This document shows positions 8,866 to 36,331 of a stretch of DNA of 64,000 nucleotides, piece after piece. The stretch's first letter is position 1; the number at the start of each line of letters is the position of its first letter. Source of the DNA: Cloeon dipterum (Eukaryota > Arthropoda > Insecta > Ephemeroptera > Baetidae); assembly GCF_949628265.1 (NCBI RefSeq), contig NC_088787.1, forward strand, positions 34,336,844 through 34,400,843. The letters run 5' to 3'. The notes beneath the pieces are model-generated. The model made no database searches and had not been told where the DNA came from. It was given only the letters and a program-made list of their open reading frames with translations. Position numbers and translations under genes: made by a program.

Positions 8866-8991
8866 GTCACTTATAGCATCATTTCTGTCACTTGTGGCAT
8901 CTGTTGTTAAAATTCTGTCACTTATAGCATCCTATCAAAGATGCCATAAGTGACGGAAAAGATGCTATAAGTGACAGTCACTTATGGCATC
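8866..8991. other. cluster of six 15-mers at the left end, candidate recombinase sites
   Basis: Copies of GTCACTTATGGCATC or one-base variants occur at 8866-8880, 8887-8901, 8917-8931 and 8977-8991. Inverted copies occur at 8940-8954 and 8961-8975. The pair 8917-8931 / 8940-8954 faces inward around an 8-bp spacer (CTATCAAA, 8932-8939), the layout of simple tyrosine-recombinase sites such as loxP. The pair 8961-8975 / 8977-8991 has a 1-bp centre. The same 15-mer, inverted, closes the element at 36005-36019. The repeats are read directly; their use as crossover sites is inference. Confidence 0.7.
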
Positions 8992-9294
8992 ACGCGAAAA
9001 ATACATAAACAAACGATTTCTTAGGTTGGCAGCACTTAGGCGTGGCCTGTGGTGGGGCGGTACTGGGCGGAGCTACTATTTCGGTTCGCGACGCGTTCAC
9101 CGGCCGGAAGAACCGTTGCGCAATAATCGTAACCGGTTTTTTATACGGGATCACCGAGTTGGAGGTGGGTGCTGCATCGCTGAAACAACTGAGCATCGGC
9201 ATCCGCACCACCATTTTGTGCTTCGTTGTCAGCGTTTTTAGACCGCGTGCGGCTGCATTTTTTATTATTTCGTGTGTTTTGAGTGCTTTTTGGA

Positions 9295-9978
9295 ATGGAA
9301 AACGGGCGTGATCAGTGCTCCCTGGACTGGAGGTTCGACCTGAGTCGTGTGAAGGACGCGATACAGAAGGATGAGTTGGACAAGAGGCGATGCGCGAACG
9401 AGCGGCTGCCTGGTTTCAGTGCGGTAAGTGTTGTCCCTGATTATTTGCATGCTGTTTGTAGTGTATTAGCTGATGGAGGTTAGTAATTGAAGGGTGACAT
9501 TGGTTTTGGAATGTTTACAGGTGCTCCCTGGTTGTTTTTCTGCAGTGCAGATTGGGAAAATCGAGGGGTCCGGTTTGGGAATGTAAGTAGATGGAATGTA
9601 TTTGTAGATGGGTGGGTTATTTAGCATGCTAAATCGTTTCAGGCGGCTCCCGGAAAGCCAGCAGGGCTACCGCGATCTGAACCGGAGGTGCCGAGAAAGA
9701 CAAAACCAATATCATACCCTGGATTCCAGGGTCCGGACAACGCACGAGGGCCGGCATCTATTTGTATCGCGCCGTAGCATTAGGATGCACGATTTGGCAA
9801 TGATTCCGGCGTACGTAAAGGATGCCGAATCGGAACTGGAGTATTCGTAAGTGGTCATGGGAGACGTATTTCAATTTTAAAAGACATGAATGGTGTTATG
9901 TAGGTACGAAGATCACCTGAATCTGCTAGGGATCGAAAATTGGGTATTCCGTGGGGATCGATCAATGCTCTTGCCAAG
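9295..9978 (+). CDS. N-terminal exons of an element gene (unrecognised)
   Basis: Four exons join in frame: 9295-9423, 9521-9582, 9643-9846 and 9904-9978, starting at ATG 9295 (MENGRDQCSLDWRF). All borders are GT-AG with strong donors (GTAAGT/GTAGG). The product is basic and arginine-rich (DLNRRCRERQNQY, LFVSRRSIRMHDLAMIP). I recognise no domain. It lies just upstream of the exon-repeat array and, further on, the helicase, so these may be the first exons of one long gene. However, joining 9978 to the first array exon at 10150 brings a stop in that unit, so either a different junction is used or the exons belong to a separate short transcript. Confidence 0.5.
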
Positions 9979-10149
9979 GTAGGATTGTAGACGAAGGGTT
10001 GTACTTTCAGTTTCTTTACCTGGCAGGTGATTGAAGGATGTCTGGAGGCATGCAGCATAATTTGTTTAATTATAATATAACCAATTGTTCTTTTCCCAGA
10101 TGTGTGAGTGTGTGTGTGTGTATGTGTGTCCGAATGGATTTATTTTCAG

Positions 10150-13100
10150 GCATGTCAGAGTCCAGACGGTGGCACGAGAGGTGCAGCAGTCAGTCTGAGA
10201 CGTCCCGCCAGCAGCCTTGCCAAGGCTGGGAGTCCCCAGGAGCACCTCTGGGGCATGCTGCAGTGAGAGGCGGTTGCCCTGGGCGCCCTGCTAGCCGCCA
10301 AACACCTCGAAGCTGGCAGTTGGAGAGTGGTTGGCGACCGAGCTGGGTGGCGACGGAGTTGTCTGCGTGTGGGGTGAGTGAAAACTGTTTTGCATGTGCA
10401 AAATGTGTTTGGCATTCAGCTGTGGCCTTCCTTATTGCGCCATGTTGTGTTTTTTGTGCGCTGTGACTGATTCACTTTGATTTCAGGCATGTGAGAGTCC
10501 AGACGGTGGCACGAGAGGTGCAGCAGTCAGTCTGAGACGTCCCGCCAGCAGCCGTGCCAAGGCTGGAGCACCTCTGGGGCATGCTGCAGTGAGAGGCGGT
10601 TGCCCTGGGCGCCCTGCTAGCCGCCAAACACCTCGAAGCTGGCAGTTGGAGAGTGGTTGGCGACCGAGCTGGGTGGCGAAGGAGTTGTCTGCGTGTGGGG
10701 TGAGTGAAAACTGTTTTACATGTGCAATATGTGTTTGGCATTCAGCTGTGGCCTTCCTTATTGCGCCATGTTGTGTTTTTTGTGCGCTGTGACTGATTCA
10801 CTTTGATTTCAGGCATGTCTGAGTCCAGACGGTGGCACGAGAGGTGCAGCAGTCAGTCTGAGACGCCCCGCCAGCAGCCTTGCCAAGGCTGGGAGTCCCC
10901 AGGAGCACCTCTGGGGCATGCTGCAGTGAGAGGCGGTTGCCCTGGGCGCCCTGCTAGCCGCCAAACACCTCGAAGCTGGCAGTTGGAGAGTGGTTGGCGA
11001 CCGAGCTGGGTGGCGAAGGAGTTGTCTGCGTGTGGGGTGAGTGAAAACTGTTTTGCATGTGCAAAATGTGTTTGGCATTCAGCTGTGGCCTTCCTTATTG
11101 CGCCATGTTGTGTTTTTTGTGCGCTGTGACTGATTCACTTTGATTTCAGGCATGTGAGAGTCCAGACGGTGGCACGAGAGGTGCAGCAGTCAGTCTGAGA
11201 CGTCCCGCCAGCAGCCGTGCCAAGGCTGGAGCACCTCTGGGGCATGCTGCAGTGAGAGGCGGTTGCCCTGGGCGCCCTGCTAGCCGCCAAACACCTCGAA
11301 GCTGGCAGTTGGAGAGTGGTTGGCGACCGAGCTGGGTGGCGACGGAGTTGTCTGCGTGTGGGGTGAGTGAAAACTGTTTTGCATGTGCAAAATGTGTTTG
11401 GCATTCAGCTGTGGCCTTCCTTATTGCGCCATGTTGTGTTTTTTGTGCGCTGTGACTGATTCACTTTGATTTCAGGCATGTGAGAGTCCAGACGGTGGCA
11501 CGAGAGGTGCAGCAGTCAGTCTGAGACGCCCCGCCAGCAGCCTTGCCAAGGCTGGGAGTCCCCAGGAGCACCTCTGGGGCATGCTGCAGTGAGAGGCGGT
11601 TGCCCTGGGCGCCCTGCTAGCCGCCAAACACCTCGAAGCTGGCAGTTGGAGAGTGGTTGGCGACCGAGCTGGGTGGCGACGGAGTTGTCTGCGTGTGGGG
11701 TGAGTGAAAACTGTTTTGCATGTGCAAAATGTGTTTGGCATTCAGCTGTGGCCTTCCTTATTGCGCCATGTTGTGTTTTTTGTGCGCTGTGACTGATTCA
11801 CTTTGATTTCAGGCATGTGAGAGTCCAGACGGTGGCACGAGAGGTGCAGCAGTCAGTCTGAGACGCCCCGCCAGCAGCCTTGCCAAGGCTGGGAGTCCCC
11901 AGGAGCACCTCTGGGGCATGCTGCAGTGAGAGGCGGTTGCCCTGGGCGCCCTGCTAGCCGCCAAACACCTCGAAGCTGGCAGTTGGAGAGTGGTTGGCGA
12001 CCGAGCTGGGTGGCGACGGAGTTGTCTGCGTGTGGGGTGAGTGAAAACTGTTTTGCATGTGCAAAATGTGTTTGGCATTCAGCTGTGGCCTTCCTTATTG
12101 CGCCATGTTGTGTTTTTTGTGCGCTGTGACTGATTCACTTTGATTTCAGGCATGTGAGAGTCCAGACGGTGGCACGAGAGGTGCAGCAGTCAGTCTGAGA
12201 CGCCCCGCCAGCAGCCTTGCCAAGGCTGGGAGACCCCAGGAGCACCTCTGGGGCATGCTGCAGTGAGAGGCGGTTGCCCTGGGCGCCCTGCTAGCCGCCA
12301 AACACCTCGAAGCTGGCAGTTGGAGAGTGGTTGGCGACCGAGCTGGGTGGCGAAGGAGTTGTCTGCGTGTGGGGTGAGTGAAAACTGTTTTGCATGTGCA
12401 AAATGTGTTTGGCATTCAGCTGTGGCCTTCCTTATTGCGCCATGTTGTGTTTTTTGTGCGCTGTGACTGATTCACTTTGATTTCAGGCATGTGAGAGTCC
12501 AGACGGTGGCACGAGAGGTGCAGCAGTCAGTCTGAGACGTCCCGCCAGCAGCCGTGCCAAGGCTGGAGCACCTCTGGGGCATGCTGCAGTGAGAGGCGGT
12601 TGCCCTGGGCGCCCTGCTAGCCGCCAAACACCTCGAAGCTGGCAGTTGGAGAGTGGTTGGCGACCGAGCTGGGTGGCGACGGAGTTGTCTGCGTGTGGGG
12701 TGAGTGAAAACTGTTTTGCATGTGCAAAATGTGTTTGGCATTCAGCTGTGGCCTTCCTTATTGCGCCATGTTGTGTTTTTTGTGCGCTGTGACTGATTCA
12801 CTTTGATTTCAGGCATGTGAGAGTCCAGACGGTGGCACGAGAGGTGCAGCAGTCAGTCTGAGACGTCCCGCCAGCAGCCGTGCCAAGGCTGGAGCACCTC
12901 TGGGGCATGCTGCAGTGAGAGGCGGTTGCCCTGGGCGCCCTGCTAGCCGCCAAACACCTCGAAGCTGGCAGTTGGAGAGTGGTTGGCGACCGAGCTGGGT
13001 GGCGACGGAGTTGTCTGCGTGTGGGGTGAGTGAAAACTGTTTTGCATGTGCAAAATGTGTTTGGCATTCAGCTGTGGCCTTCCTTATTGCGCCATGTTGT

Positions 13101-14336
13101 GTTTTTTGTGCGCTGTGACTGATTCACTTTGATTTCAGGCATGTGAGAGTCCAGACGGTGGCACGAGAGGTGCAGCAGTCAGTCTGAGACGTCCCGCCAG
13201 CAGCCGTGCCAAGGCTGGAGCACCTCTGGGGCATGCTGCAGTGAGAGGCGGTTGCCCTGGGCGCCCTGCTAGCCGCCAAACACCTCGAAGCTGGCAGTTG
13301 GAGAGTGGTTGGCGACCGAGCTGGGTGGCGAAGGAGTTGTCTGCGTGTGGGGTGAGTGAAAACTGTTTTACATGTGCAATATGTGTTTGGCATTCAGCTG
13401 TGGCCTTCCTTATTGCGCCATGTTGTGTTTTTTGTGCGCTGTGACTGATTCACTTTGATTTCAGGCATGTCTGAGTCCAGACGGTGGCACGAGAGGTGCA
13501 GCAGTCAGTCTGAGACGCCCCGCCAGCAGCCTTGCCAAGGCTGGGAGTCCCCAGGAGCACCTCTGGGGCATGCTGCAGTGAGAGGCGGTTGCCCTGGGCG
13601 CCCTGCTAGCCGCCAAACACCTCGAAGCTGGCAGTTGGAGAGTGGTTGGCGACCGAGCTGGGTGGCGAAGGAGTTGTCTGCGTGTGGGGTGAGTGAAAAC
13701 TGTTTTGCATGTGCAAAATGTGTTTGGCATTCAGCTGTGGCCTTCCTTATTGCGCCATGTTGTGTTTTTTGTGCGCTGTGACTGATTCACTTTGATTTCA
13801 GGCATGTGAGAGTCCAGACGGTGGCACGAGAGGTGCAGCAGTCAGTCTGAGACGTCCCGCCAGCAGCCGTGCCAAGGCTGGAGCACCTCTGGGGCATGCT
13901 GCAGTGAGAGGCGGTTGCCCTGGGCGCCCTGCTAGCCGCCAAACACCTCGAAGCTGGCAGTTGGAGAGTGGTTGGCGACCGAGCTGGGTGGCGACGGAGT
14001 TGTCTGCGTGTGGGGTGAGTGAAAACTGTTTTGCATGTGCAAAATGTGTTTGGCATTCAGCTGTGGCCTTCCTTATTGCGCCATGTTGTGTTTTTTGTGC
14101 GCTGTGACTGATTCACTTTGATTTCAGGCATGTGAGAGTCCAGACGGTGGCACGAGAGGTGCAGCAGTCAGTCTGAGACGTCCCGCCAGCAGCCGTGCCA
14201 AGGCTGGAGCACCTCTGGGGCATGCTGCAGTGAGAGGCGGTTGCCCTGGGCGCCCTGCTAGCCGCCAAACACCTCGAAGCTGGCAGTTGGAGAGTGGTTG
14301 GCGACCGAGCTGGGTGGCGAAGGAGTTGGGAGGAAG
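10150..14336 (+). repeat. 13-unit tandem array of exon-intron modules
   Basis: Thirteen units of 326 or 337 bp repeat head to tail with few differences. In each, an acceptor (TTTGATTTCAG) is followed by a 213- or 224-bp segment and a donor (GTGAGTGAAA), then a 113-bp intron. Segment starts are 10150, 10487, 10813, 11150, 11476, 11813, 12150, 12487, 12813, 13139, 13465, 13802 and 14128. The 213-bp form is exactly 71 open codons, phase 0 at both ends (begins ACESPDGGTRGAAV, ends TELSACG), so such exons can be chained without shifting frame. The 224-bp form has 11 extra bases (between GGAG microrepeats). It is open only when read from an ATG near its start (units 1, 3 and 11: ATGTC-GAG). In units 5, 6 and 7 the same place reads ATGTGA. 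The last unit ends differently (about 14320-14340). Confidence 0.85.
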
Positions 14337-14340
14337 GCAG

Positions 14341-14529
14341 GGTTAGTACGAGCTGTTCGATAGCAGCGTGCCCTCCCGGTGTGCTTGCCTGCGGTGTTCC
14401 TTTTGCTTGTGGTTGACCGACTGAGTGGTAATGCTTTTCTGCGTGACCTAACGTTTAGCAGGTGGAAATGTGAAATTGTTTTACTCCTGTACGATTTGCT
14501 GAAAATGATTTAACCCAGTGTGCCAATGT

Positions 14530-14573
<44 letters not shown>

Positions 14574-14690
14574 TGTGCATTTAGGTGGTAGCTGAAATGG
14601 TTGCTGAGCAATTTTCATTTTGCGGGGGATGTATGATATGTGGGGAAACGATTGTTGTGGTATCCTTTTGAAATAATTGTTTTTCTCCAG
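14341..14690. repeat. intron with (GT)n microsatellite
   Basis: A GT dinucleotide run occupies about 14531-14571, between the last array exon and the first helicase exon. The simple phase of that junction does not fit (one base against two needed), so a small unrecognised exon may lie here. Confidence 0.6.
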
Positions 14691-16883
14691 CGTCATCACC
14701 GGCCTGTACCTCGACCTCGCGAAGCTGGAGACCCTCCTGGACAGAGCTGGTGGCATTGCCAAGGTGACATGCATTGACCAAGGCCGACCAGACCGACGAG
14801 CTGTATGGGAGGCACGACTGGAAGTGGAGCCGACACCTGAAGTCTACGTCTGCCTCGAAGCAACTGTTGGCGAGTGGTGTCAGCTCGAGGTTATTGGCGG
14901 CAGGCCCGTTGGTGGTACGTATCATTTTTTTAATTGACTGCTTAGGTGTAATTGTTGCAACTGCAGGCAAGATGCTGGTGAGGAGCCATGACCGTGGGAC
15001 AGTTACGCTCACCGAGGGTGACGGAGCCAAGCTGTTGGACCGGGAGCTCCTTGTTGCCCTGTGGAACCAGCGGTGCCGCCTGCAGTTCCTGCCAACCTTG
15101 GTGGGGCACCGTCTTAGGGTCACCGGCTCCGTCGATGGATTGAGTGCCCTTGCCGACTACTTCCAGGGAGGTGGCTTGGGAACAAAGGAGTGCGGCATCC
15201 CACTGGTGAGAAATCACTTTGATTGTGTGTTGATAGCTTTACTGACCCAATTGTTTCTGCCGCAGGTTGACGACCACCATCTTGCAGCGCTGAAGCGAGG
15301 AGAGGGATTCATGGACGAGATGCTCAACCAGGAGCAGAGGAGGGCTGTGGTGGAGATCCTGGAGCACAGGCGGCCCCACGTCCCATACCTGCTGGTCGGC
15401 CCCCCAGGAACGGGAAAATCCGCAACCTTGGACGAGGTCGTGCTTCAGTTGGCTACCCACCACAAGGAGAAGAGGACACTTGACGCTCTGTGAGATCTTA
15501 TTGGTTTGTGTAACTTGTTAACTAATTGATTTTCCTTTGTTTTCAGCATCTACTACGTGGTCCCGTCCAACCTGGGGGTTCGGTCGACCGCCGAAAGGTT
15601 GTTGCGGTTGGGAATGAGGAGCGAGCAACTGGTGCGCCTCTACTCGGAGCATGAGCACGTGAAGGGGACCGACCCCCTCAGAGACATCTCGCAGCGAGCT
15701 TCCCGGATGCAACACCTCATCACCACCAGCGTGGTCATCGGGACCCCCATCGCCATTGCTCGCATCGGGCTGACCCTTGGTGAGAGGAATCCACCGCCCC
15801 TTCTGTTGCTGGTAAGTTTTAATCAATTGTACAATTTTGTTTTGATTACATTTCATTTTTTTTTCAGCTGGACGAGGCAGCCTACATCAAGCTGGGAGAG
15901 GCCTTTGCGGCTCTGACGGCGAATGGAGAGCCTGTGCAGACTGTGCTTGCCGGGGACCGGAAGCAGCTTCGGCCACGCTGTTTCAGCAAGGTGGCCGAAA
16001 GCATGCATGGCAAGTACAGTCTGTTCGATTTGGCCGCCGACAGTGGATTCTTCGAGGATGATGGGTAAGTAGCATTGAGGCTGGATGGAACGGTAATTAC
16101 CTAATCATGTTTCAGATTGAGGCCGAAGGAGGGGCTTGGTGTGATGCTGCGTCTCAACTATCGGGCCCACGAGAAGTTGGTGAGGGAGGTCTCCTGCCTG
16201 TTTTACAACGGACTGATGGTAAGCATGACATGCTCGAGTGACTGTTTTGTTATGACTTTTGTTTTGCATTTCAGATCCCTGGCCCAGCTAGCCTCCCCTC
16301 CAACAGCCTGCTGCTGCTGCGTTTCGGGCTGGAGAGACTGGGACTCGACGCGAACCAGAGCGCCATCCGCTGGGTGGACATTGATGGTGCAATGCAACGC
16401 GACCCCCTCACCAGGTCCCTCTTCAACGTAGTGGAAGCCGACGCTGTGGTGTCCGTGGTGGACTCGCTGTGCCGGTGCATCCCCCCCCAACAGGTTACGG
16501 TGCTTGCACCGTACCGTAAGCAGGTATGTTGTGTGCCGAATTGTAACTAGTGGTGCAATGTTGATAATTCTTCGTCTATGTTTCAGGTGGCGGTGCTCCG
16601 GGAGAAGCTCCCCCGTGACATCACTGTCTTCACTGCGGACGAGGTGATAGGCCAGGAGCGGCCTGTAATTGTGGTGTCACTGGTACGAAGCGACCGTGGA
16701 GAAGACAACGCGCGTGATCATGGGGTGGGCTTCTTGAGGGAGCCAAACAGGGTCAATGTTCTGATCAGCCGTGCCAAGGAGATCGTGATCCTGGTAGGCT
16801 CCAGGGCCCACTTCATCAGGAGTGGTGTTGGCTTTTGGGGAATCCTCCCAACCAGGACTGAACCCCTCCCGGCACAGTTCTAA
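14691..16883 (+). CDS. SF1B helicase, UPF1/MOV10-like
   Basis: Eight exons join in frame: 14691-14914, 14967-15205, 15266-15489, 15547-15811, 15868-16064, 16116-16218, 16275-16523 and 16587-16883 (about 599 codons). The helicase motifs appear in order: Q-motif LNQEQRRAV, motif I GPPGTGKS (15398-15421), motif II LDEAAY (exon 15868), motif III GDRKQLRP, motif IV LNYRAH, motif V TADEVIGQE and motif VI NVLISRAKE. This set is that of 5'-3' RNA/DNA helicases of the UPF1/MOV10/SMUBP type, which use ATP to unwind nucleic acid. The first ~150 residues resemble a beta-barrel accessory region. No good ATG opens exon 14691; it must be fed by upstream exons, probably the repeat array, although the phase of that junction is unresolved. 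The stop is at 16881-16883. A role in element replication or RNA control is inference. Confidence 0.85.
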
Positions 16884-17259
16884 ACATGCTACTTATTTAT
16901 TTCCAACTTTTCGGGACTTATTGGTGATTTCATATGGCGTGAAACGCTTCCCTTTGAATAATTACCTCGACACTGTTTTTGATACTAATCTTATGAATTT
17001 TGATAACCTTATTTTACATGTAATGATATATAATGTATTTTGAACTGACCATACTTGGTGACCTTAGACACATAAACTAGTGAATCCTTGAAATAACTGG
17101 TTGACGGTTTTTATTACACGTACTTCCTAGGCACAACCATTCACATGAGCATTTAACAGAGGAGGAAGTAACAATTGGTAACAAATGAAAGGAGAATAAA
17201 GCGTGATCCTTACATAACTGGGCATTGGTTGGCAACAAACAAAACTTCTAGTTAGAATA
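16884..17259. other. convergent 3' ends of helicase and recombinase genes
   Basis: AT-rich intergenic DNA between two converging genes. It should hold both 3'UTRs; an AATAAA on the plus strand lies near 17195. I see no other gene. Confidence 0.5.
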
Positions 17260-20200
17260 TTACTGAACTTTCTTTGGGCGTCCTCTTTTCTTCTCAGGCA
17301 AACTTGAAACCCTGGAGAAACATTGAGTTAACTGAATTTGTTTCAACACTTCTATAAGAAATACCTGGTAATGCTGGAACTTGCGCGCTTCTTGGGAAAC
17401 CGTTTTTCCTGGTTTGAGATGTCAGCAGCAGCGTCACTGTCTGCCGTCACAGGGGCAGATGCTTCCTTTCCTTTGGCAACAGTTTTGTTCTTGGAGCCCC
17501 GCGGTCGGCCTGGGCGTCGTTTCTGTGGCACCGTCAACGTGGGAACCTGTACCTGCGCTTCTGCATTGCTAGTTTCATGCACGGATCTGTAAGGTGGTGT
17601 TAGCTTTGCGAATCTAGTCAGTTGAATTAAATTACCCTGAATCAGCCGAGATGTTGGTCTCTGCGGCGGACTCATTGCTGCTCGTTTCAGTTTCTTCTGC
17701 CTCACTTTCGGACTGCGCTGCTCTGTTAAAGTGATCATTATAAGTTACTCATCCAGCCATCAAGATCCCTTGTTATACTTTTTCGTTTTCTTGCGTAGCG
17801 TCGGTTTATTCGGAGCTCTGACCTTGTTCTTGCTCCCGGGTTTGCGTCCCCGCCGTGGTTTAGTCGGCTGTGGTTTCACAGCAAGCTCTGCCTCTGCGGC
17901 TTCCTCATCCACGTCCTCAAAGAGAATGGCATCTTGGAGGTCCTCGATGCTGAAGCTGATGGAAGAAGGAGAAAGGTAATGTTAATACGTGGAATAGGGG
18001 GAAACGTGGAAGAAGATTTTTTTCAGCCGGTAAATCATAGGCGGCTGTCCAAGTTTTGTTTACGGGAAATACACTTACTCGTCTTCCGGGTCAGCATTGT
18101 CCGGTTGGGCAGCGGTTGTTCTGATCTCTGCTGCCTGTTCCAAGGTGGTTCCCTTGTGCTTTTGAATGTTACCATCTTGGAAAATCTCTAGTGCTCTGCC
18201 GACCATCAGATTGAAACCAAGGCCCGTCGGAAGATCGTAGTACTGGTCGTGGACCGTGATTGAGTGTCCCATCAACAGGCACAGGAGCTTCTTTGAAGGT
18301 CCGCTAAGCTCCATCTGGCCCAAAGTTGTCGCGAAGGTCGTCCTGATGGCACGCGCCCTGAGGTCATCAGGTCGTTCTGCAAGGCACGCTTCAGCAGCTG
18401 CTTTCTGCGGCCCTCTCACGTCCATCGGTTTTCCGTTTTTCGTGCCGAACAGGTAAATGCAACTCTCCGGAATGCCCGCCGCAGCACGCACTCCTTTGTC
18501 AGACAGGGTTGTGAAGTAGTCGCGCCATTCTGGTTTTAAGAGGGAAAGAACTTTGGTAGACCCTTTCCCGGTGGAGGTAAGCACGTCGTACCGCTCGGCC
18601 AGTTCTTGTTGCGCTTTTGATAGCGCATCGCTGTTCTTCCCCGAGTAATTGTTTCTCTCCTCATAGTTCTGCAGAGTAACGAAGCTTCCCTCAGTCGCCC
18701 TGCGAGCGTTGAAGGAACAGAAAGCCAGGTTCAAATGTGTTGCCAACGCCTTGTAGTGACACTCAAACTCTGACTCTTTCTTCGCTTTCTGCAGGTGAAT
18801 GTGGTGGTAGCTGCACATTCCTTCAAGGTGCGCGTTGTAGAGTTGCAGGTCGTGGGGTGACACGTGCGTCTTGTGGAGCTTCTCGCTGTTTTTCTTCTGC
18901 TTTGCAGCCCTTGTTGTCGTATAAATACGGTACCTCTTAGTTTCCAGGTATTCGATCAGCAACCGGCACTCTTCGGTCCACAATTTACGCTCGGCTTCGT
19001 CCTCGAACCGCTCCTGCTGCAACTCACTCGCTACTTGTCTGATGAGTGAGCTGAGCGTCATGACGTCATTGGGCCGCTTGAAATCTACCCTGTTTTCCTC
19101 ACCGCCGCAGATGGTGTGGATGACCTCGATGATTCGGTCAGTCTTGCTTGCCGGTCGGTTGCTGGGAAGCCCCTGCCAAACGGACCGCTTGCAGATGTCC
19201 CTCAGCGAGGTTACTAATCCAGGGATTTCTGCATGCACCTTGAAAGCGGTGTACAAAGCGTAGAGAAGGCGGATATTCCTCCGGCTGATTTGCACTCCGT
19301 TGTTGCCAGTTTCCTGCTGCAGGCCAAAATTTTTTACCACTCTGATCACCAGCTGATCATCTGTGATGATGAAGCTGGCGATCCTTTTGTCACGCATGTT
19401 GTTAAGGATTTTGTCCACCGCAACCGTGTAGCTCTGGTCCAAATTTGTCCGGAGTTGCTCAATGCGGTTCAACTCGAGCAGGTCAACCGGTGGTGCTGGT
19501 TCTCGGGCCTCAACGCCTCGCCGAGTGCGGCAAATCTGCAAGTGCCTCTTGAAATTGCGGCTCGTGTGAAGTGTCAGGCAGTAGGGGCACTTGTTTGTTG
19601 TGCGAACGCTGGCTGTCTGGCTGCGCCGCGACGGTACCAGCGTGCCCTGCCTGCACTGCAATACTGTGGCGTTGTGCTGCTCGTTACCAAGGAGCCGCAA
19701 TTCACTGAAGAAAGCTCTCATTCGTTCCGCGGATGGCTTCGCAGCGTACAGATCTTGGATTTCTGGCTCCTGCATGTGGCCCAACCGCAGATGCCTCATG
19801 ATGTTCCCCCTAAAGTTCTTTCCGCAGAAATAGCAATATTGGTTCTTTTTCACGCCGGCGGCAAGAGCCAAGATCTTGACGGGCGTGGTCTTCACCTTCT
19901 TGTGAGGGGACAGAGTAAGGCATGAACCGCCCATGGCGGCAAATCTTCTCGAACCAGCTGCAATTGGACAGTTGGTACCGTAAGAAAAAACTGCAGTCAT
20001 TATTTTTACATTGCCTACCCGCTTTTGTGAATGTTTCGTAAACTTTTCTCGTGTGTTTCTTCAGTACCCCGCTGAACAGGTCGAATGCTCGCCACTCCGT
20101 GCCAGCATGCACGCCAAAGATGTATACCACTCCCTCTGCAGGATCAATATCCAGGGATTGAAAGGTAGATGTCAGGAAAGTGGCGCCTGGTGGCACAGAC

Positions 20201-23454: not shown

Positions 23455-24357
23455 TTTTCCGCATTTAAAATTCAATGTAATCTGATTTCTTCCGAAGGTT
23501 TCGTACCGTTCGTGGAACAATAAAATGTGTAATTTCTAATTAATTCGTTTTAATTGAAACTGGGAGACGGTTCTAGGAATGAGATTTACTAAAACTTTCA
23601 ATCACAATTTGCCTAAAGGCACTGGAACTTGGAAGAAACAAAGGAACATGAGCGAAAAACAAAATCAACACCTAGCTAGGCGGCAGCACTGCCTATGCGG
23701 CAAAGCAGGCCAACACTCCCAAGTGAATGCGGTGAAGGAGCATTGCATTGAGGGCGGCAAAATTTTCACTCTTGACACTCGCGCTATCTCCGGTCCGTCT
23801 TTGTCCCTCGGGTGCAGAAAGAGGCAACAGGTATGTAAATTTCCGTCATATAATGAGTAGAAATGTCAATTACAACAGTTCAACATCAATTTCAACCCAA
23901 TTGCATTCTTTACAATTAATGCATGTGCGTTATGCATGTCATACATCCAATAAGAAATAGGAATCATGTAAGTTAAAGTGATGCATGCCCGCGGAAAAAG
24001 CTGAATCGAATGTAATGCACAATTTCATGGCCTGCGTAATTTTGCATCTTTTGACTGCACTGAATGCGTTAGTGTTATTTATGTGTGTACGTATTTATGC
24101 ATGTCTGTAGCGAAATTTGGACGAATGTATGCAAATGTAAGGCTGCATGTGAGTGAAAATTAATGTAGACTAATTTTTTTACATTCATAACGCTCAACAA
24201 GTACATTCCGAATTCGTTGGCAAAGGGTGTCAGTCCGCCGTTATGTATCGCAAGTTGTACGATTGCTACTTTTGTAGAATTTGTGGCAGACAACGCCGCC
24301 ACTTGCATTGCCGGGGCACGTTGCACTATTTTTTGACATAGGTTTCTCAGTTTCAGC
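23455..24357 (+). other. intergenic or 5' leader of BEN gene 2
   Basis: An open frame from 23579 (internal ATG 23649, MSEKQNQHLARRQHC) runs to a good donor at 23832 (CAACAG/GTATGT). Spliced to the acceptor before 24358 it does not keep the frame of the next gene, so it is either a 5' leader with an upstream open frame or a separate small exon. The rest is AT-rich with repeated GCATG words. Confidence 0.35.
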
Positions 24358-26037: not shown

Positions 26038-26326
26038 TTTCCATGTCCGATACTGATTGGCAGCTACCTTCAGTTACATTTTGCATTGTAATTATTTTCA
26101 TATGCGTGATACACTGCTTGTTACCACAAATAAATTAACCATTCCAAAAATTTCATTGTTTTCTTTAACATTCCATGGCATTGCTCGCAGCAAACACGAT
26201 TTTAATTTCTACAGTTTGTCGCAATTTCCATATTGCTCTAATTCAATTTTTTCAATTGTTCGTGCAACACGTTTCGTTATAAACAAAATCACGCTACGTT
26301 AACCCTTTCCCTCCGTTGCTGATTGT
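26038..26326. other. 3' flank of BEN gene 2
   Basis: AT-rich, with AATAAA at about 26129 as a likely polyadenylation signal. No gene is seen. Confidence 0.5.
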
Positions 26327-28683
26327 TTTCCGACAGTTAAATTGAACTGGATCTGCATTGCCGTGGCAGCGTAACCGCCATGGCCGAAACAGTAATTTTC
26401 GGATTTTGGCCGACGATTTCGATAAAAATTGCTTCGCGAATTATTCCGCGAATAATTACACAAAAATTAAGTGGATGTGGTGCGGAATTAAATTTTTTTT
26501 TTCCGACAGTTAAATTGAACTGGATCTGCATTGCCGTGGCAGCGTAACCGCCATGGCCGAAACAGTAATTTTCGGTTTTTGGGCGAAATTTCCACATCAA
26601 CTTGCTTCCCGAGTGATTCCTCAACTAACTTTACAAAAATTTTTAATGAAACAGTGAAATTTGAATTTTTTGAGCGACAATAGAAATTACACCATGCAAC
26701 GCGACTAGGATCGCACTCAGCTTTATTTGGCGATCAAAGTGCTAAACTGGCAGCGGATCTGCATTGCCGTGGCAGCGTAACCGCCATGGCCGAAACAGTA
26801 ATTTTCGGATTTTGGCCGACGATTTCGATAAAAATTGCTTCCCGAATTATTCCGCGAATAATTACACAAAAATTAAGTGGATGTGGTGCGGAATTAAATT
26901 TTTTTTTTCCGACAGTTAAATTGAACTGGATCTGCATTGCCGTGGCAGCGTAACCGCCATGGCCGAAACAGTAATTTTCGGATTTTGGCCGACGATTTCG
27001 ATAAAAATTGCTTCGCGAATTATTCCGCGAATAATTACACAAAAATTAAGTGGATGTGGTGCGGAATTAAATTTTTTTTTTCCGACAGTTAAATTGAACT
27101 GGATCTGCATTGCCGTGGCAGCGTAACCGCCATGGCCGAAACAGTAATTTTCGGATTTTGGCCGACGATTTCGATAAAAATTGCTTCGCGAATTATTCCG
27201 CGAATAATTACACAAAAATTAAGTGGATGTGGTGCGGAATTAAATTTTTTTTTTCCGACAGTTAAATTGAACTGGATCTGCATTGCCGTGGCAGCGTAAC
27301 CGCCATGGCCGAAACAGTAATTTTCGGTTTTTGGGCGAAATTTCCACATCAACTTGCTTCCCGAGTGATTCCTCAACTAACTTTACAAAAATTTTTAATG
27401 AAACAGTGAAATTTGAATTTTTTGAGCGACATTAGAAATTACACCATGCAACGCGACTAGGATCGCACTCAGCTTTATTTGGCGATCAAAGTGCTAAACT
27501 GGCAGCGGATCTGCATTGCCGTGGCAGCGTAACCGCCATGGCCGAAACAGTAATTTTCGGATTTTGGCCGACGATTTCGATAAAAATTGCTTCGCGAATT
27601 ATTCCGCGAATAATTACACAAAAATTAAGTGGATGTGGTGCGGAATTAAATTTTTTTTTTCCGACAGTTAAATTGAACTGGATCTGCATTGCCGTGGCAG
27701 CGTAACCGCCATGGCCGAAACAGTAATTTTCGGTTTTTGGGCGAAATTTCCACATCAACTTGCTTCCCGAGTGATTCCTCAACTAACTTTACAAAAATTT
27801 TTAATGAAACAGTGAAATTTGAATTTTTTGAGCGACATTAGAAATTACACCATGCAACGCGACTAGGATCGCACTCAGCTTTATTTGGCGATCAAAGTGC
27901 TAAACTGGCAGCGGATCTGCATTGCCGTGGCAGCGTAACCGCCATGGCCGAAACAGTAATTTTCGGATTTTGGCCGACGATTTCGATAAAAATTGCTTCC
28001 CGAATTATTCCGCGAATAATTACACAAAAATTAAGTGGATGTGGTGCGGAATTAAATTTTTTTTTTCCGACAGTTAAATTGAACTGGATCTGCATTGCCG
28101 TGGCAGCGTAACCGCCATGGCCGAAACAGTAATTTTCGGATTTTGGCCGACGATTTCGATAAAAATTGCTTCGCGAATTATTCCGCGAATAATTACACAA
28201 AAATTAAGTGGATGTGGTGCGGAATTAAATTTTTTTTTCCGACAGTTAAATTGAACTGGATCTGCATTGCCGTGGCAGCGTAACCGCCATGGCCGAAACA
28301 GTAATTTTCGGTTTTTGGGCGAAATTTCCACATCAACTTGCTTCCCGAGTGATTCCTCAACTAACTTTACAAAAATTTTTAATGAAACAGTGAAATTTGA
28401 ATTTTTTGAGCGACATTAGAAATTACACCATGCAACGCGACTAGGATCGCACTCAGCTTTATTTGGCGATCAAAGTGCTAAACTGGCAGCGGATCTGCAT
28501 TGCCGTGGCAGCGTAACCGCCATGGCCGAAACAGTAATTTTCGGATTTTGGCCGACGATTTCGATAAAAATTGCTTCCCGAATTATTCCGCGAATAATTA
28601 CACAAAAATTAAGTGGATGTGGTGCGGAATTAAATTTTTTTTTCCGACAGTTAAATTGAACTGGATCTGCATTGCCGTGGCAG
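26327..28683. repeat. two-type tandem array of about 12 units
   Basis: Units of about 173 bp (type A) and 232 bp (type B) alternate in a partly regular higher-order pattern. Both begin with GACAGTTAAATTGAACTGG or CTAAACTGGCAG followed by GGATCTGCATTGCCGTGG and CGCCATGGCCGAAACAG. Type A contains the palindrome TTCGCGAATTATTCCGCGAA. Copies are nearly identical, which implies recent homogenisation. The ~85-100 residue minus-strand frames across the array are a by-product of the repetition. Function is unknown; a binding-site array for the element's own proteins is possible. Confidence 0.85.
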
Positions 28684-28882
28684 TTGATCTGCAAGCCCAA
28701 ACGGTTACTGCAGTGGGCGTGGAGTGCATCTGCAAAATCTCATGAATCACTTTCAGCAACTCTGCTCAACCTTCCAATTTTGGACTTTTACTGCAATTCT
28801 CCAAGGCTGTCCTTCGTGCTTACACTAATTCTGCGCATAAATTGCTTCAAGTGACACACTGTTGCCACGCAATTTCTCAAAA
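28684..28882 (+). promoter_or_regulatory. upstream region of the methyltransferase gene
   Basis: The array's terminal motif decays into GTTGATCTGCAAGCCC and ACTGCAGTGGGCGTGG, then AT-rich DNA leads to the start codon at 28883. The related GATCTGCA/ACTGCAGTGG words at the recombinase promoter suggest a shared control element. Confidence 0.4.
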
Positions 28883-31691
28883 ATGCGGCCACTTGGATCA
28901 TATGCCCAATTTGGCAATCAGTTCTGCAAAATTGTCAGTGCAGAGGAAGATCAGGCATTCAGGTCCCCGGCAATTTACCACATCACAGTGCTCGAGTGAG
29001 TCTTTTCGAACGAACCATTACAATATCTCGCAGCTCTAATTTATTCCCATAGGCGAGTTGCTAAGACTCTCATCCAGAACGGACCGCCAAATGAGTTGGT
29101 CCAAATTAAAGGATGCCATTACGTGGAAGACAGGGCCCTCCGTGATACTATTCGAGTTCTACCATCCATGCAGGAGGCTTCTACAGATGCTTCATATTTC
29201 TGCAGACTCTAGTACTTATAATACACTTAAACAACAAGTTTTGCCTAATTAGCGATTAAACACTCGTGCAGTTTTGATGGATCCTCGTTCCTACCAACAA
29301 TGATTTTCAACGAACAAGACAAGTGGTGCCCTTGCAGGTATTCAAGCAAACGAAAGATGCTGGCGCACGTCACAACGGACGGATTGAATGGCCTAACTTC
29401 TGTAACACATCATTTTAATATTCAAAAGGCCAACAAAAACTCTATCAAATGTTTCATTATGGTGTCACAGGTGCGGTTCGGCTCGTCCGTTGCTATTGAG
29501 AAGGGGACATGCTTAGCCACAACACTCAAATCAGAGCAATTGCCAGAAGTGCCTGGACAAAAATTACTCCGCGTTGTCCGCGTTGACAAAATCAAGGTCA
29601 AAAAAACCGGTGACAAAAAATCAGACCAGGTACTCGCTGCATCAAAGATTCGGTTGGCTGTCACTTGCTTTGTCAGACCTCCTGAGACCAACAGTTGTTC
29701 GCAAGAATCGCCTGCAAATCTTCTACACTTGTCTTCATACAGTGAATATACTCATTTAACAAAACCCTCCGCTTTTTTTAAAACCATCTTCACTACCATT
29801 CACAGAAACTGAAATTTCTGGTGCACTTTTCGTCGCGGTCGTTAACGTCTCGTTCCATAACACACTGGAAGTGAAGTACACAACCGACATCGATCAATAC
29901 GGAACGGCCACATACATCTGCAACAGTCTCCTAGACATGCAAACCAACCAAGTTGTATTGCCTGCTTCCATCCCAAAATTAGTAATTGAATTCATTTATG
30001 CTAACAGCTTTCGATGCTTGATGGCTCCCTTGCTTCAACAAAGAGTGTTACTCCGTCACTCGAATCAAATCCACTCCGATGCCTAGATCTGTTCTGCGGC
30101 TGCGGAGGATTATCCCTAGGGTTGGAGATGAGCCACCTGACAACCTGCCTTTGGGCAGTTGACGCAGACCCTACAGCGTGCAAATCCTTCGCTGCCAACT
30201 TCAGACAAGCAACAGTGTACCAAAGTTCAGCCATTGACTGGTTGAAAGAACTAAAAACGGTAACTTGTTCGAGCACAACACCAAGGAAGATTAATACTCC
30301 TAAATCCAAAATAGGGAGCATTGTTCACAAAAAAGGGACAGAAGCTGCCACAAACCGGCGAGGTGGAAATGATTATTGGAGGACCGCCGTGCCAAGGATT
30401 CTCCAAATTAAATAGATTCAAAAACAACAACACCTCAGTCACAAACGTAACTACTTAGAATTCACTAAAATCAACTTTCCATTGTTTCTTTCATGCCATT
30501 CTTCAGAAATCACAAGTTCCAGTGTTTCTGGAAATCGTCGCCTACTTCAGGCCTAAGTGCTTCTTGATGGAAAATGTCAAATCCTTCATCACAGAGGATG
30601 GTGGAAAACACTTTCTGGCAGCGCTGCAGGCAACCAAAGACTTGGGTTATTATTTCAACTTCAATGTCTTACAGGCTGCTGATTTCGGCGCACCTCAACA
30701 ACGCCCTAGGTTGTCCTCTCCAAAACTTCACTAATCCCACTAACAACATTTCCCAATCTGCTAGGTTCTTCCTGTTTGGCACCCTCGACAGCAGACGGCT
30801 GGCTGCAGCACCAATAAGCACCCATTACTCTGGTCTGGAAGTCACAAGTGTCAAAGCAGCCAGTCATACTCTGGTACCAATTCATGCTTTCCACCACTGC
30901 CTAATTCGTAGCTTCCTTCCCCCTACAGTCATTCACGGACAAACAGGAAGCTTACTTTCAAAAAGTTACTGTGCACCACGCCATTGCTGATTTGCCAGAT
31001 GTTGAGCCACAAGAGAGCGGCAACAAAATCAGCTACAACTCAATCAACTCAACTTTCCAATTCAAAGTGAGTATAACAATCATTTCAATCCGAAACTATT
31101 AATAACATTTCTTCACAGATGAGGAATGGCAGTGACACTTTGCGATTGCATAAGCTCCCCACGTCACTGAATCCAGATGACCAAAAAAGGATCACAATGA
31201 TCCCGCCAGGGTCAGACTGGCGATGCCTACCTCAGTCAGAACACGAGGAATGCTTCAAAACGTTTGCGCTAACTTCGCTTAAAATTTATTTAAAATTAAT
31301 CTTCCTCTTCTCTACTTCCATTAGAGGCATGCCCCTTGCACCTAAGTCACTGGTAAAGTCCTCTCGCTCTAATGGTGACTGGAAAGGAGCTTATGGCAGA
31401 CTGCGATGGTCCGACCTCTTCATGACAGTTTTAACAAGACCAACCCTTGCTTCTAAGACTGGGACAATCATCCATCCTATCTACAATAGAACCCTGACAA
31501 TACGAGAGTTTGCACGAGCACAGACCTTTCCAGACAACTTCAAATTCAAAGGGACCATAGCTCAAGTTCAGCGACAGGTAGCCTATCTAAGTCATTAAAG
31601 CCCTTTGATAATTAATAATATTGCTCTACAGATTGGAAACGCGGTACCCCCCCTTCTGGCTGAATCACTCGGACGTGCATTCAAAATCTAA
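28883..31691 (+). CDS. DNMT1-type cytosine-5 DNA methyltransferase with BAH-like N-terminus
   Basis: Twelve exons join exactly in frame (726 residues): 28883-28995, 29053-29211, 29272-29741, 29806-29981, 30008-30259, 30342-30446, 30507-30709, 30765-30873, 30929-31066, 31119-31261, 31325-31577 and 31632-31691. It transfers a methyl group from S-adenosylmethionine to cytosine C5. Motif I is [13 protein letters not shown] (~333), motif [11 protein letters not shown] (catalytic Cys ~407), motif VI LMENV (Glu ~447), motif VIII QQRPR and motif [35 protein letters not shown] and GAYGRLRW are typical of the DNMT1 branch. Residues ~1-300 look like one or two BAH domains ([36 protein letters not shown]). 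The N-terminal RFTS, CXXC zinc finger and PCNA-binding parts of host DNMT1 are absent. All catalytic residues are kept, so it may be active. Part of exon 3 (about 29401-29468) may be an optional intron. Confidence 0.88.
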
Positions 31692-31844
31692 CAAAACGTA
31701 CGCCTCATTCTCCTCTTTCATAACAACACGAGTCATATTCAATAAAATTTTTACTTCATAACTGTGTATTTATTTCCATTCATTACATTCCATTCCTGCA
31801 CATTCCCTCCAATGGCTGCCACCAGCATGAAGACCGAAGCATGG
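31692..31844. other. 3' flank of the methyltransferase gene
   Basis: AATAAA at 31741 is a likely polyadenylation signal. The right-hand exon-repeat array begins directly after it. Confidence 0.5.
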
Positions 31845-34800
31845 CCGGCGAGCAGGGCGCCCAGGGCAACCGCCTCTCACTGCAGCCTGCCCCAGAGGTG
31901 CTCCAGCCTTGGCACGGCTGCTGGCGGGGCGTCTCAGACTGCCTGCTGCACCTCTCGTGCCACCGTCTGGACTCTCACATGCCTGAAATCAAAGTGAATC
32001 AGTCACAGCGCACAAAAAACACAACATGGCGCAATAAGGAAGGCCACAGCTGAATGCCAAACACATATTGCACATGTAAAACAGTTTTCACTCACCCCAC
32101 ACGCAGACAACTCCTTCGCCACCCAGCTCGGTCGCCAACCACTCTCCAACTGCCAGCTTCGAGGTGTTTGGCGGCTAGCAGGGCGCCCAGGGCAACCGCC
32201 TCTCACTGCAGCATGCCCCAGAGGTGCTCCTGGGGACTCCCAGCCTTGGCAAGGCTGCTGGCGGGGCGTCTCAGACTGCCTGCTGCACCTCTCGTGCCAC
32301 CGTCTGGACTCTCACATGCCTGAAATCAAAGTGAATCAGTCACAGCGCACAAAAAACACAACATGGCGCAATAAGGAAGGCCACAGCTGAATGCCAAACA
32401 CATATTGCACATGTAAAACAGTTTTCACTCACCCCAACACGCAGACAACTCCTTCGCCACCCAGCTCGGTCGCCAACCACTCTCCAACTGCCAGCTTCGA
32501 AGTGTTTGGCGGCTAGCAGGGCGCCCAGGGCAACCGCCTCTCACTGCAGCATGCCCCAGAGGTGCTCCAGCCTTGGCACGGCTGCTGGCGGGACGTCTCA
32601 GACTGACTGCTGCACCTCTCGTGCCACCGTCTGGACTCTCACATGCCTGAAATCAAAGTGAATCAGTCACAGCGCACAAAAAACACAACATGGCGCAATA
32701 AGGAAGGCCACAGCTGAATGCCAAACACATATTGCACATGTAAAACAGTTTTCACTCACCCCAACACGCAGACAACTCCTTCGCCACCCAGCTCGGTCGC
32801 CAACCACTCTCCAACTGCCAGCTTCGAAGTGTTTGGCGGCTAGCAGGGCGCCCAGGGCAACCGCCTCTCACTGCAGCATGCCCCAGAGGTGCTCCAGCCT
32901 TGGCACGGCTGCTGGCGGGACGTCTCAGACTGACTGCTGCACCTCTCGTGCCACCGTCTGGACTCTCACATGCCTGAAATCAAAGTGAATCAGTCACAGC
33001 GCACAAAAAACACAACATGGCGCAATAAGGAAGGCCACAGCTGAATGCCAAACACATATTGCACATGTAAAACAGTTTTCACTCACCCCACACGCAGACA
33101 ACTCCTTCGCCACCCAGCTCGGTCGCCAACCACTCTCCAACTGCCAGCTTCGAAGTGTTTGGCGGCTAGCAGGGCGCCCAGGGCAACCGCCTCTCACTGC
33201 AGCATGCCCCAGAGGTGCTCCAGCCTTGGCACGGCTGCTGGCGGGACGTCTCAGACTGACTGCTGCACCTCTCGTGCCACCGTCTGGACTCAGACATGCC
33301 TGAAATCAAAGTGAATCAGTCACAGCGCACAAAAAACACAACATGGCGCAATAAGGAAGGCCACAGCTGAATGCCAAACACATATTGCACATGTAAAACA
33401 GTTTTCACTCACCCCAACACGCAGACAACTCCTTCGCCACCCAGCTCGGTCGCCAACCACTCTCCAACTGCCAGCTTCGAAGTGTTTGGCGGCTAGCAGG
33501 GCGCCCAGGGCAACCGCCTCTCACTGCAGCATGCCCCAGAGGTGCTCCTGGGGACTCCCAGCCTTGGCACGGCTGCTGGCGGGACGTCTCAGACTGACTG
33601 CTGCACCTCTCGTGCCACCGTCTGGACTCTCACATGCCTGAAATCAAAGTGAATCAGTCACAGCGCACAAAAAACACAACATGGCGCAATAAGGAAGGCC
33701 ACAGCTGAATGCCAAACACATATTGCACATGTAAAACAGTTTTCACTCACCCCACACGCAGACAACTCCTTCGCCACCCAGCTCGGTCGCCAACCACTCT
33801 CCAACTGCCAGCTTCGAGGTGTTTGGCGGCTAGCAGGGCGCCCAGGGCAACCGCCTCTCACTGCAGCATGCCCCAGAGGTGCTCCTGGGGACTCCCAGCC
33901 TTGGCAAGGCTGCTGGCGGGGCGTCTCAGACTGACTGCTGCACCTCTCGTGCCACCGTCTGGACTCTCACATGCCTGAAATCAAAGTGAATCAGTCACAG
34001 CGCACAAAAAACACAACATGGCGCAATAAGGAAGGCCACAGCTGAATGCCAAACACATATTGCACATGCAAAACAGTTTTCACTCACCCCACACGCAGAC
34101 AACTCCGTCGCCACCCAGCTCGGTCGCCAACCACTCTCCAACTGCCAGCTTCGAGGTGTTTGGCGGCTAGCAGGGCGCCCAGGGCAACCGCCTCTCACTG
34201 CAGCATGCCCCAGAGGTGCTCCTGGGGACTCCCAGCCTTGGCAAGGCTGCTGGCGGGGCGTCTCAGACTGACTGCTGCACCTCTCGTGCCACCGTCTGGA
34301 CTCTCACATGCCTGAAATCAAAGTGAATCAGTCACAGCGCACAAAAAACACAACATGGCGCAATAAGGAAGGCCACAGCTGAATGCCAAACACATATTGC
34401 ACATGTAAAACAGTTTTCACTCACCCCACACGCAGACAACTCCTTCGCCACCCAGCTCGGTCGCCAACCACTCTCCAACTGCCAGCTTCGAGGTGTTTGG
34501 CGGCTAGCAGGGCGCCCAGGGCAACCGCCTCTCACTGCAGCATGCCCCAGAGGTGCTCCTGGGGACTCCCAGCCTTGGCAAGGCTGCTGGCGGGGCGTCT
34601 CAGACTGCCTGCTGCACCTCTCGTGCCACCGTCTGGACTCTCACATGCCTGAAATCAAAGTGAATCAGTCACAGCGCACAAAAAACACAACATGGCGCAA
34701 TAAGGAAGGCCACAGCTGAATGCCAAACACATATTGCACATGTAAAACAGTTTTCACTCACCCCAACACGCAGACAACTCCTTCGCCACCCAGCTCGGTC

Positions 34801-35570
34801 GCCAACCACTCTCCAACTGCCAGCTTCGAAGTGTTTGGCGGCTAGCAGGGCGCCCAGGGCAACCGCCTCTCACTGCAGCATGCCCCAGAGGTGCTCCAGC
34901 CTTGGCACGGCTGCTGGCGGGACGTCTCAGACTGACTGCTGCACCTCTCGTGCCACCGTCTGGACTCAGACATGCCTGAAATCAAAGTGAATCAGTCACA
35001 GCGCACAAAAAACACAACATGGCGCAATAAGGAAGGCCACAGCTGAATGCCAAACACATATTGCACATGTAAAACAGTTTTCACTCACCCCAACACGCAG
35101 ACAACTCCTTCGCCACCCAGCTCGGTCGCCAACCACTCTCCAACTGCCAGCTTCGAAGTGTTTGGCGGCTAGCAGGGCGCCCAGGGCAACCGCCTCTCAC
35201 TGCAGCATGCCCCAGAGGTGCTCCTGGGGACTCCCAGCCTTGGCACGGCTGCTGGCGGGGCGTCTCAGACTGACTGCTGCACCTCTCGTGCCGCCGTCTG
35301 GACTCTCACATGCCTGAAAACAAAGTTAATCAGTCACTGTCCATAAAATACATGATATAGCGCAATAAGGAAGGCCAAAAATCAATGCCTTACACATATT
35401 TCAATTTTAAAACTGTTTCCACTCACCCCGCCACGCAGCCAACTCCGTCCTCACCCAGCTCGGTCCCCTAACACTCTCCAACTGCCAAGTTAGCGGTGCT
35501 TGGCAGCAAGCAGGGCGCCCAGGGCATACACCTGGCCCTGCTGCATGCAACGCTGGGCGCCTACGGGGAC
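31845..35570 (-). repeat. inverted exon-intron array (right arm), about 11 units
   Basis: The units are the same 326/337-bp modules as at 10150-14336 but on the minus strand, so the element has inverted arms of about 4.2 and 3.7 kb. Several units have one extra base next to the donor (CCCCAACACG), making the exon 214 bp. Two units (near 33294 and 34968) carry the ATGTCTGAG start on the short form, where it soon meets a stop. There is no helicase downstream, and the array reads into the 3' end of the methyltransferase gene. The outermost unit (35300-35570) is heavily decayed. Probably non-coding or antisense. Confidence 0.85.
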
Positions 35571-36004
35571 TTAAAACTTTGCCCGCGGCATAAATTCAGG
35601 GCATAAACTCAGACAACAATGGCGGCGACTTTTAGAAAAGCACTCATGGCACAATCACAAATGATGTCAAGGCGCATGCGCCAGATGGTCTGTAATCACT
35701 ACCGCGCAGCGCTCACAACACCACTGGTGCTGCCACCTTCCCATACCACACTCGAAAAACCGGTTGTTTTGGCACCATCCCCACCCATTTACAACCGTCC
35801 AGCTTGGATGACGCCCATCACCTTGATAATGCCAACCTCTGAAATTCGTCAACTTTGACCATTTTTTTCACCCCCAACCCCAACCCCAAAAAATCCAAAA
35901 AAATATTTTTTAACACCCCCCCAACCGCATTGACGCCCACAGCAAGTATGAAGCGAATTCATTACTATCATTTTTGTAAACAAAACAATAAAAATATTCA
36001 GAAG
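35571..36004. other. right subterminal region of the element
   Basis: Contains a minus-strand AACCGGTTTTTCGAG...GGTGGCAGCACC block similar to the left subterminal block near 9135-9175, and a C-rich/A-rich stretch at 35868-35930. No gene is supported; the short frame at 35619 overlaps this repeat similarity. Confidence 0.45.
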
Positions 36005-36019
36005 GATGCCATAAGTGAC
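36005..36019 (-). repeat. right terminal 15-bp inverted repeat
   Basis: GATGCCATAAGTGAC is the exact reverse complement of 8977-8991. Only one copy is present at this end, against six at the left. Confidence 0.8.
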
Positions 36020-36331
36020 GCTATTCTGTTTATGGAGGTTTATATGATCGAGAATTATTTTGAAGTGGTATATATACTTAATAAAATAAATGTTCTTAAT
36101 TCATACGTTTTTATTATCGTAACTGTAAAACAGTACAGATACGCGGGTATAAATTACTAAAGTTTATTGACAGTCGATCAATAAACAGCTGGCTAACATG
36201 CCAGAGAATGAACCCAGCAAGAAATTGGATATCCGCGATATCCACCGTATGACATCGGGCAGTACAGATGTAAATCCCCCGGATACGTTTTGGATATCCT
36301 TCAGATATCAAATTTCTTGCTGGGGAGGTGG

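Follow-up and report, generated by a model that had tools for sequence, protein, structure and literature searches.

Starships are defined by a DUF3435 'captain' as their first gene. In Tn916-type conjugative transposons and in the system of bacteriophage lambda Int, accessory sites are separate from the core sites; Tn916 has variable bases at its junction and tolerates mismatched crossover regions. Sola transposons are of the DDE type. As reported, the Cryptons of animals have no C-terminal domain and terminal repeats were not found in them (PMC3212892), the Symbiodinium retrotransposons SymbioDIRS-Dnmt3 and SymbioLINE-Dnmt carry a eukaryotic DNA methyltransferase (DNMT), with de novo CG methylation by the SymbioDIRS-Dnmt3 enzymes in yeast (PMC5890265), and the 21.5-kb DNA transposon Sola1-1_Ec32 of a brown alga encodes a DNA methyltransferase (PMC12477816). 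We found no description of an animal DNA transposon with both a tyrosine recombinase (YR) and a cytosine DNMT in the literature searched, whose coverage excluded most subscription papers, preprints and Repbase.

We analysed a 64,000-nucleotide stretch of the genome of the mayfly Cloeon dipterum (C2:34336844-34400843, here called the window) and searched the whole assembly of 190.1 Mb in 10 contigs, of which C1 to C5 are 33-43 Mb each and together make up about 187 Mb. As shown in Table 1, the window contains a complete element with ends, genes and repeat arrays of its own. Five near-identical copies of it are present on four of the five large contigs, two on C1 and one each on C2 (the window copy), C3 and C5, and the host flanks are unlike one another in all five. 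Compared piece by piece, the unique DNA of the other four copies is 99.6-100% identical to that of the window copy. Exactly the same five copies show 100% identity of a recombinase exon (661-aa open frame) and of a DNMT exon (136 aa). The copies span 24.7-28.3 kb from outermost 15-bp site to outermost 15-bp site (25-33 kb is the size range over both subfamilies described below), and their repeat arrays vary. A 27-kb mobile element had been proposed for this locus, and five copies with unlike flanks and borders identical to the base bear this out; mobility and borders are thus directly seen. Further copies sharing the ends and the genes were looked for, and besides these five the genome contains an older relative and a second subfamily. 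Whether recombinase and methyltransferase recur together was a check set in the original prediction; within this genome they do, and the helicase recurs with them, so that joint inheritance of the genes is directly observed. The best explanation, which we consider highly probable with its inferred steps included, is a 25-28 kb DNA transposon that is autonomous, has been active recently and is moved by its own tyrosine recombinase.

Table 1. Features of the element in the window (positions of the window).
Feature	Position	Strand	Basis or remark
Complete element	8854..36037	+	limits of the sequence common to five copies with unlike flanks
Left core TATTTGAGTAGT	8854..8865	+	identical in 5/5 copies; AG before each
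Left cluster, six 15-bp sites, GTCACTTATRGCATC-like, four + and two -	8866..8991	+	same left-end sequence in 5/5 copies
SF1 helicase gene, 12 exons, 755 aa	9295..16883	+	AAA_12 E 1.4e-33, AAA_11 4.4e-14
Left tandem array, 12.6 units of 326/337 bp	10144..14328	+	repeat search
Tyrosine recombinase gene, 11 exons, 1,256 aa	17260..21796	-	gene model and profiles
Recombinase exon encoding the zinc fingers and the catalytic region	18079..19957	-	open frame, alignment
Cysteine-rich open frame	22335..22877	+	open frame list; no family match
Acidic, coiled-coil-like protein, 420 aa, 8 exons	24358..26037	+	gene model; called 'BEN' earlier
173/406-bp repeat array	26326..28377	-	repeat search
DNMT1-type C5 methyltransferase, 12 exons, 725 aa (catalytic part 30008-31691)	28883..31691	+	PF00145 E 1.3e-58
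Right tandem array, 11.1 units, in opposite orientation to the left one	31846..35526	-	repeat search
Single right 15-bp site	36005..36019	-	motif search and copy comparison
Right core GCTATTCTGTTTAT and junction tetramer GGAG	36020..36037	+	comparison of five copies

In the window, the host TGAG at 8850-8853 lies directly left of the insertion, and host DNA starts again at 36038. About 300 bp from the right end of the element there is an open frame at 36332-36859 (- strand) with a Pfam bZIP_2 match (E 4.7e-11), which we take to be C/EBP-like; the insertion may adjoin a host regulatory gene. A palindrome at 43349-45279 has 879-nt arms at 100% identity, a 173-nt spacer and 100-bp tandem repeats inside.

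The 15-bp inverted ends claimed at the outset are found as described. The window has seven matches to the motif at ≤2 mismatches against 0.05 expected, and all are at the two element ends; three of them are exact (8940-8954, -; 8977-8991, +; 36005-36019, -). Genome-wide, the motif GTCACTTATGGCATC has 27 exact sites and its reversed control none, and with R and one mismatch allowed there are 118 sites against 6 in the control. The full end layout occurs with identical spacing at five genome places, and because this spacing is common to all of them the left end comprises the entire cluster 8866-8991. The comparison of the five copies moved the borders outward from the predicted 8866 and 36019 to 8854 and 36037, the sequence common to the copies starting with TATTTGAGTAGT and ending with GCTATTCTGTTTATNNAG. 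The junction tetramer is GGAG in the window copy and AGAG in the other four. The ends are asymmetric: the left has six 15-bp sites and the right has one, next to core sequences and an NNAG junction that varies. This is the crossover pattern expected of a tyrosine recombinase rather than of DDE transposition. A Cre/lox-like 15-8-15 core at 8917-8954 was considered and dropped, since the cluster is inside the element in 5/5 copies and the junctions are outside the cluster.

The direct repeats flanking copies A to E are GAG, AGAG, AG, AG and ATAGAG. AG alone is constant, and its presence at the target is seen directly; no target duplication of fixed length was found in the five insertions. Copy E, on C5, sits inside a satellite of mostly 81-bp units, and its uninterrupted target is present at 415 places at ≤2 mismatches, all on C5 among the matches listed. 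The uninterrupted units represent the empty site for copy E and show a precise insertion, so that the search for an empty site was successful. Among the matches listed the satellite lies at C5:31.785-31.795 Mb, and the flanks of copy E are near 31.81 and 31.836 Mb. Eighteen small end stretches, 8 of left and 10 of right type, were picked by hand among the matches listed. Inspected by eye, 14 of 15 right ends (the five young copies and others, with L045 and L046 having a common flank and not being independent) have the 14-bp core followed by NNAG with NN varying, and one is shifted by one base. On the left, AG|TATTT was seen by eye in 9 of 15 clusters (the five young copies, L027, L047, L048 and L056) and was unrecognisable in six that are degraded or belong to another kind (L028, L049, L050, L051, L054 and L055). 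A constant core with varying bases at the adjoining junction is the trace expected, by analogy with Tn916, of a tyrosine recombinase that accepts mismatches in the crossover region.

The recombinase model, in which one intron was set at 89 nt, has C2H2 pairs that start at aa 493 and aa 575, its catalytic motifs at aa 868-1026 and three AT-hooks recognised by eye (aa 1113, 1190 and 1248). We scanned three recombinases against profiles, those of the window element, the older copy and subfamily 2. Pfam Phage_integrase (E 0.0024) and the PRK00283 tyrosine recombinase (E 0.0022) each matched one of the three, and PHROG_1 integrase (E 0.0023) and NCBIfam XerC (E 0.0034) each matched two. Neither Pfam nor NCBIfam gave a match to the window's own recombinase, and its PHROG_1 match was at E 0.094 only. 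Profile comparison by hhalign with E. coli XerC/XerD gave 75.7% probability (pairwise E 2.4e-5; reversed control 0.2%), pairing GKGSTK, AIRTTFAT and LMGH with their counterparts, and comparison with a four-member profile of lambda Int, XerC, XerD and Cre gave 20.7% (reversed 0.3%). Five residues are identical in both subfamilies: R (NARRATEG), K (GKGSTK), R (AIRTTFAT), H (LMGHS) and Y (HDQYY). GKG..K, R and LMGH align with XerD, the box-I R and the Y were placed by eye, and in the recombinases of both subfamilies Arg takes the place of the first His of HxxR. A PDB profile search returned five weak matches, none of them a recombinase; no relatives were found in two IMG/VR scans or in plasmids, and the protein had no DUF3504 Pfam match. 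A single-sequence structure prediction of the core was discarded (mean pLDDT 37.7). The tyrosine recombinase of the original prediction is upheld by profile evidence that is weak but convergent: each signal is weak, but added to the junctions and the catalytic residues the signals persuade us that this is very probably a tyrosine recombinase, of remote similarity to the known ones.

The four multi-exon genes that had been said to close in frame (helicase, recombinase, coiled-coil and DNMT) do so, with GT/AG introns that are numerous and about 50-120 nt long. The helicase also has an intron of 4.7 kb (9979-14690) that contains the left array, and its frame closes exactly across the array. Both helicase halves, AAA_11 and AAA_12, are above cut-off and the motifs were recognised by eye, in agreement with the predicted SF1 helicase, which is presumably Upf1-type. 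The left and right arrays are inverted to each other, again as described before. The BEN proteins of the original prediction had to be given up, as no Pfam BEN match was obtained with whole proteins (E up to 1) or with segments (E up to 10). The cysteine-rich frame at 22335-22877 (+) is possibly a fifth gene of the element.

The methyltransferase matches PF00145 with 199.5 bits and has introns of 52-64 nt. In a PDB search the top 26 of 47 matched sequences were named DNMT1 (best E 2.4e-70), and these two results agree with the DNMT1 type assigned earlier. The cofactor loop, PCQ, ENV, QxRxR and a C-terminal GNAVPP were recognised by eye. DNMT1 enzymes carry RFTS, CXXC and BAH domains in their N-terminal part; here only about 300 aa lie ahead of the catalytic domain, and the one N-terminal exon scanned had no Pfam match. 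The host has two DNMT1-like genes (L036, C1:5.54 Mb; L037, C2:6.90 Mb) and one DNMT2-like gene, and no DNMT3 among 41 scored candidates, the types being assigned by eye. The two host DNMT1-like genes share 80% identity in the conserved pieces compared; identity between the DNMTs of the elements and the host DNMT1s is 43-48%. In a seven-taxon DNMT tree the window element grouped with the older copy (support 96), the host pair had support 94 and hosts plus mouse 69, and the three element DNMTs stood apart from host, mouse and DNMT2 with a support of just 71. Identities and tree together indicate that the element DNMT is no recent capture from the two host DNMT1 genes.

The element has a CpG o/e of 0.77 with TpG/CpA at 1.30/1.32, against 1.01-1.10 and 1.03-1.06 in the flanks. 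This loss of CpG with an excess of TpG/CpA is the pattern of methylated-C deamination and, judged from base composition, looks like a trace of germline methylation. By region, CpG o/e is 0.57 in the arrays, 0.69 in the DNMT gene, 0.70 in the helicase, 0.87 in the recombinase and 0.92 at 21800-26320; the 173-bp array at 26326-28377 is CpG-rich (1.67, against 0.57 in the other two arrays). The host DNMT1 loci are depleted too (0.63 and 0.71). Because the depletion is uneven and the host DNMT1 loci share it, the CpG pattern of the element need not mean self-methylation.

An older relative at C2:35.676-35.703 Mb has kept all four genes, and its recombinase is 73% identical to that of the window. 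Between the window and this relative, Nei-Gojobori dN/dS was 0.086 for the recombinase (626 codons), 0.153 for the helicase (591), 0.158 for the DNMT (415 codons, two stop cells dropped) and 0.198 for the coiled-coil protein (348), values that are rough since dS of 1.4-2.4 is saturated; the edges of introns may also be part of some of the stretches matched. Signs of selection are thus directly seen, and the four proteins, DNMT included, appear to be kept by purifying selection. L040, a 90% copy of subfamily 1, has a dN/dS of 0.216 and one stop.

A second subfamily is represented by a 33-kb copy at C4:6.631-6.664 Mb and a 30-kb copy at C2:36.8545-36.8849 Mb, which agree with each other at 98-100% for the greater part of their length, and by more long matches, at 94-98%, on C2 and C5. 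Two of the latter, on C5 and at C2:36.20 Mb, have stops in the recombinase, and dN/dS between subfamily 2 copies (0.15-0.88) rests on few changes and is uninformative. The subfamily 2 recombinase is 41% identical to that of the window, and the helicase and DNMT, by piece, 28-49% and 37-74%. The gene order differs, as do the arrays (491 bp x 7 and 368 bp x 7), and no coiled-coil gene was found at E up to 0.1 in the nine pieces searched. The end 15-mer of this subfamily, GTCACGAAGAGACTC, occurs once on the left and four times (≤2 mismatches) in the last 180 bp on the right, with an additional inner cluster of seven in the C4 copy and no occurrence in the window. As both subfamilies have a single site at one of their ends and several clustered at the opposite one, the layout has persisted through a change of motif that went with the change of recombinase. 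A stretch of about 8 kb at C2:34497885-34505961 matches subfamily 2 at 97-98% on its left and right and at only 67% in the helicase region, and may be read as a short or third variant. Most other recombinase matches, many with stops, crowd C2:35.67-37.1 Mb and C5:1.05-1.2 Mb near contig ends, and the five intact subfamily 1 copies are located outside these regions. The two regions are possibly element graveyards or small-RNA clusters.

Inverted end motifs resemble terminal inverted repeats, and with Sola1-1_Ec32 a giant DNA transposon bearing a methyltransferase is on record (PMC12477816). Recombinase and DNMT could then be cargo of a large DDE-type or other transposon. We consider this improbable: no DDE domain was present among the element ORFs scanned, the five insertions have no fixed-length target duplication, and the end motifs change with the recombinase subfamily. 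No reverse transcriptase, the mark of DIRS/Ngaro elements, was found among the element ORFs scanned, small ORFs being covered in part. A large endogenous DNA virus of the nimavirus kind, integrating by a tyrosine recombinase with C2H2 fingers, would account for the zinc fingers, since nimaviral YRs typically bear a C2H2 domain and endogenous nimaviruses act as giant mobile elements in crustacean genomes (PMC10871703). It is nevertheless a very improbable source of an element of just 25-33 kb with intron-rich genes, whose scanned ORFs (small ones in part) included no capsid, polymerase or other viral hallmark and whose recombinase had no relative in either IMG/VR scan. The introns give the genes a host-like look, as would a segmental duplication of a host gene cluster, but the chance of that is negligible given borders identical to the base in five copies with unlike flanks, a copy inside a satellite unit, and a second subfamily with another gene order.

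The remaining alternative accepts the same element and differs in what its DNMT acts on: the enzyme would redirect host methylation, or maintain a silencing that makes the element tolerable. The host enzymes found (two DNMT1-like, one DNMT2-like, no DNMT3 among the candidates scored) and the CpG depletion at host DNMT1 loci speak for it, whereas the short N-terminus of the element DNMT speaks for a changed mode of targeting. We regard action on the host as a serious possibility that we do not favour.

For a transposon moved by its own recombinase, the reading we prefer, the YR family suggests that the recombinase would join right core, NNAG and left core into a circle, which would be integrated by crossover at a target AG; zinc fingers and AT-hooks may bind the accessory 15-bp sites and A+T-rich DNA. 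The helicase may aid replication or unwinding of the excised DNA and hence a rise in copy number. Least certain are the steps in which the compact DNMT1 would methylate the element's own DNA, and in which this self-methylation might hide the circle or damp expression and host damage between bursts. In our reading, from one genome searched, this is a new large class of YR DNA transposon carrying its own DNMT1, and probably a new superfamily. More tentatively, and with the chances rather against it, we propose an animal YR transposon superfamily with a heterobivalent recombinase whose accessory (15-bp) sites are distinct from its core sites, as in lambda or Tn916, with movement through a circle that the helicase assists, and with a pared-down DNMT1, active constitutively, that writes 5mC on the element, which would thus encode its own silencing state. 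If large transposons have their own DNMT, an element would control the host-parasite contest over DNA methylation. The near-identical, intact-looking copies make excision, site choice and methylation directly testable, a recombinase with so short a target could become a eukaryotic integrase for large inserts, and the element offers a route for the spread of DNMT1-like genes among animal genomes.

Like SymbioDIRS-Dnmt3, the Cloeon element combines a transposon-borne DNMT with a tyrosine recombinase; the former is a retrotransposon and carries Dnmt3 rather than DNMT1 (PMC5890265). Sola1-1_Ec32 differs by an N4C/N6A-type enzyme with a ParB-like domain (PMC12477816). Like the Starship/Enterprise transposons, the element is giant, YR-driven and multi-gene, but those are fungal; it has no DUF3435 Pfam match, and its recombinase is mid-element. 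With the Tn916-type conjugative transposons and lambda Int it shares variable junction bases and accessory sites apart from core sites, though these systems are bacterial and show no sequence relation to it beyond the YR signal. Like a Crypton (CryptonA and CryptonI of animals), it is a DNA element that encodes a tyrosine recombinase and presumably passes through a circular intermediate, and like the fungal and oomycete Cryptons it has short direct repeats. Cryptons are expected to have 4-6 bp terminal direct repeats and no terminal inverted repeats; here inverted 15-bp sites are present at both ends and only AG is constant. It further differs from the animal Cryptons by its 25-33 kb, its multi-site inverted ends, its helicase and DNMT and the AT-hook tail of its recombinase. 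We therefore read it as an element that works like a Crypton or a conjugative-transposon integrase, yet is unlike the animal Cryptons described.
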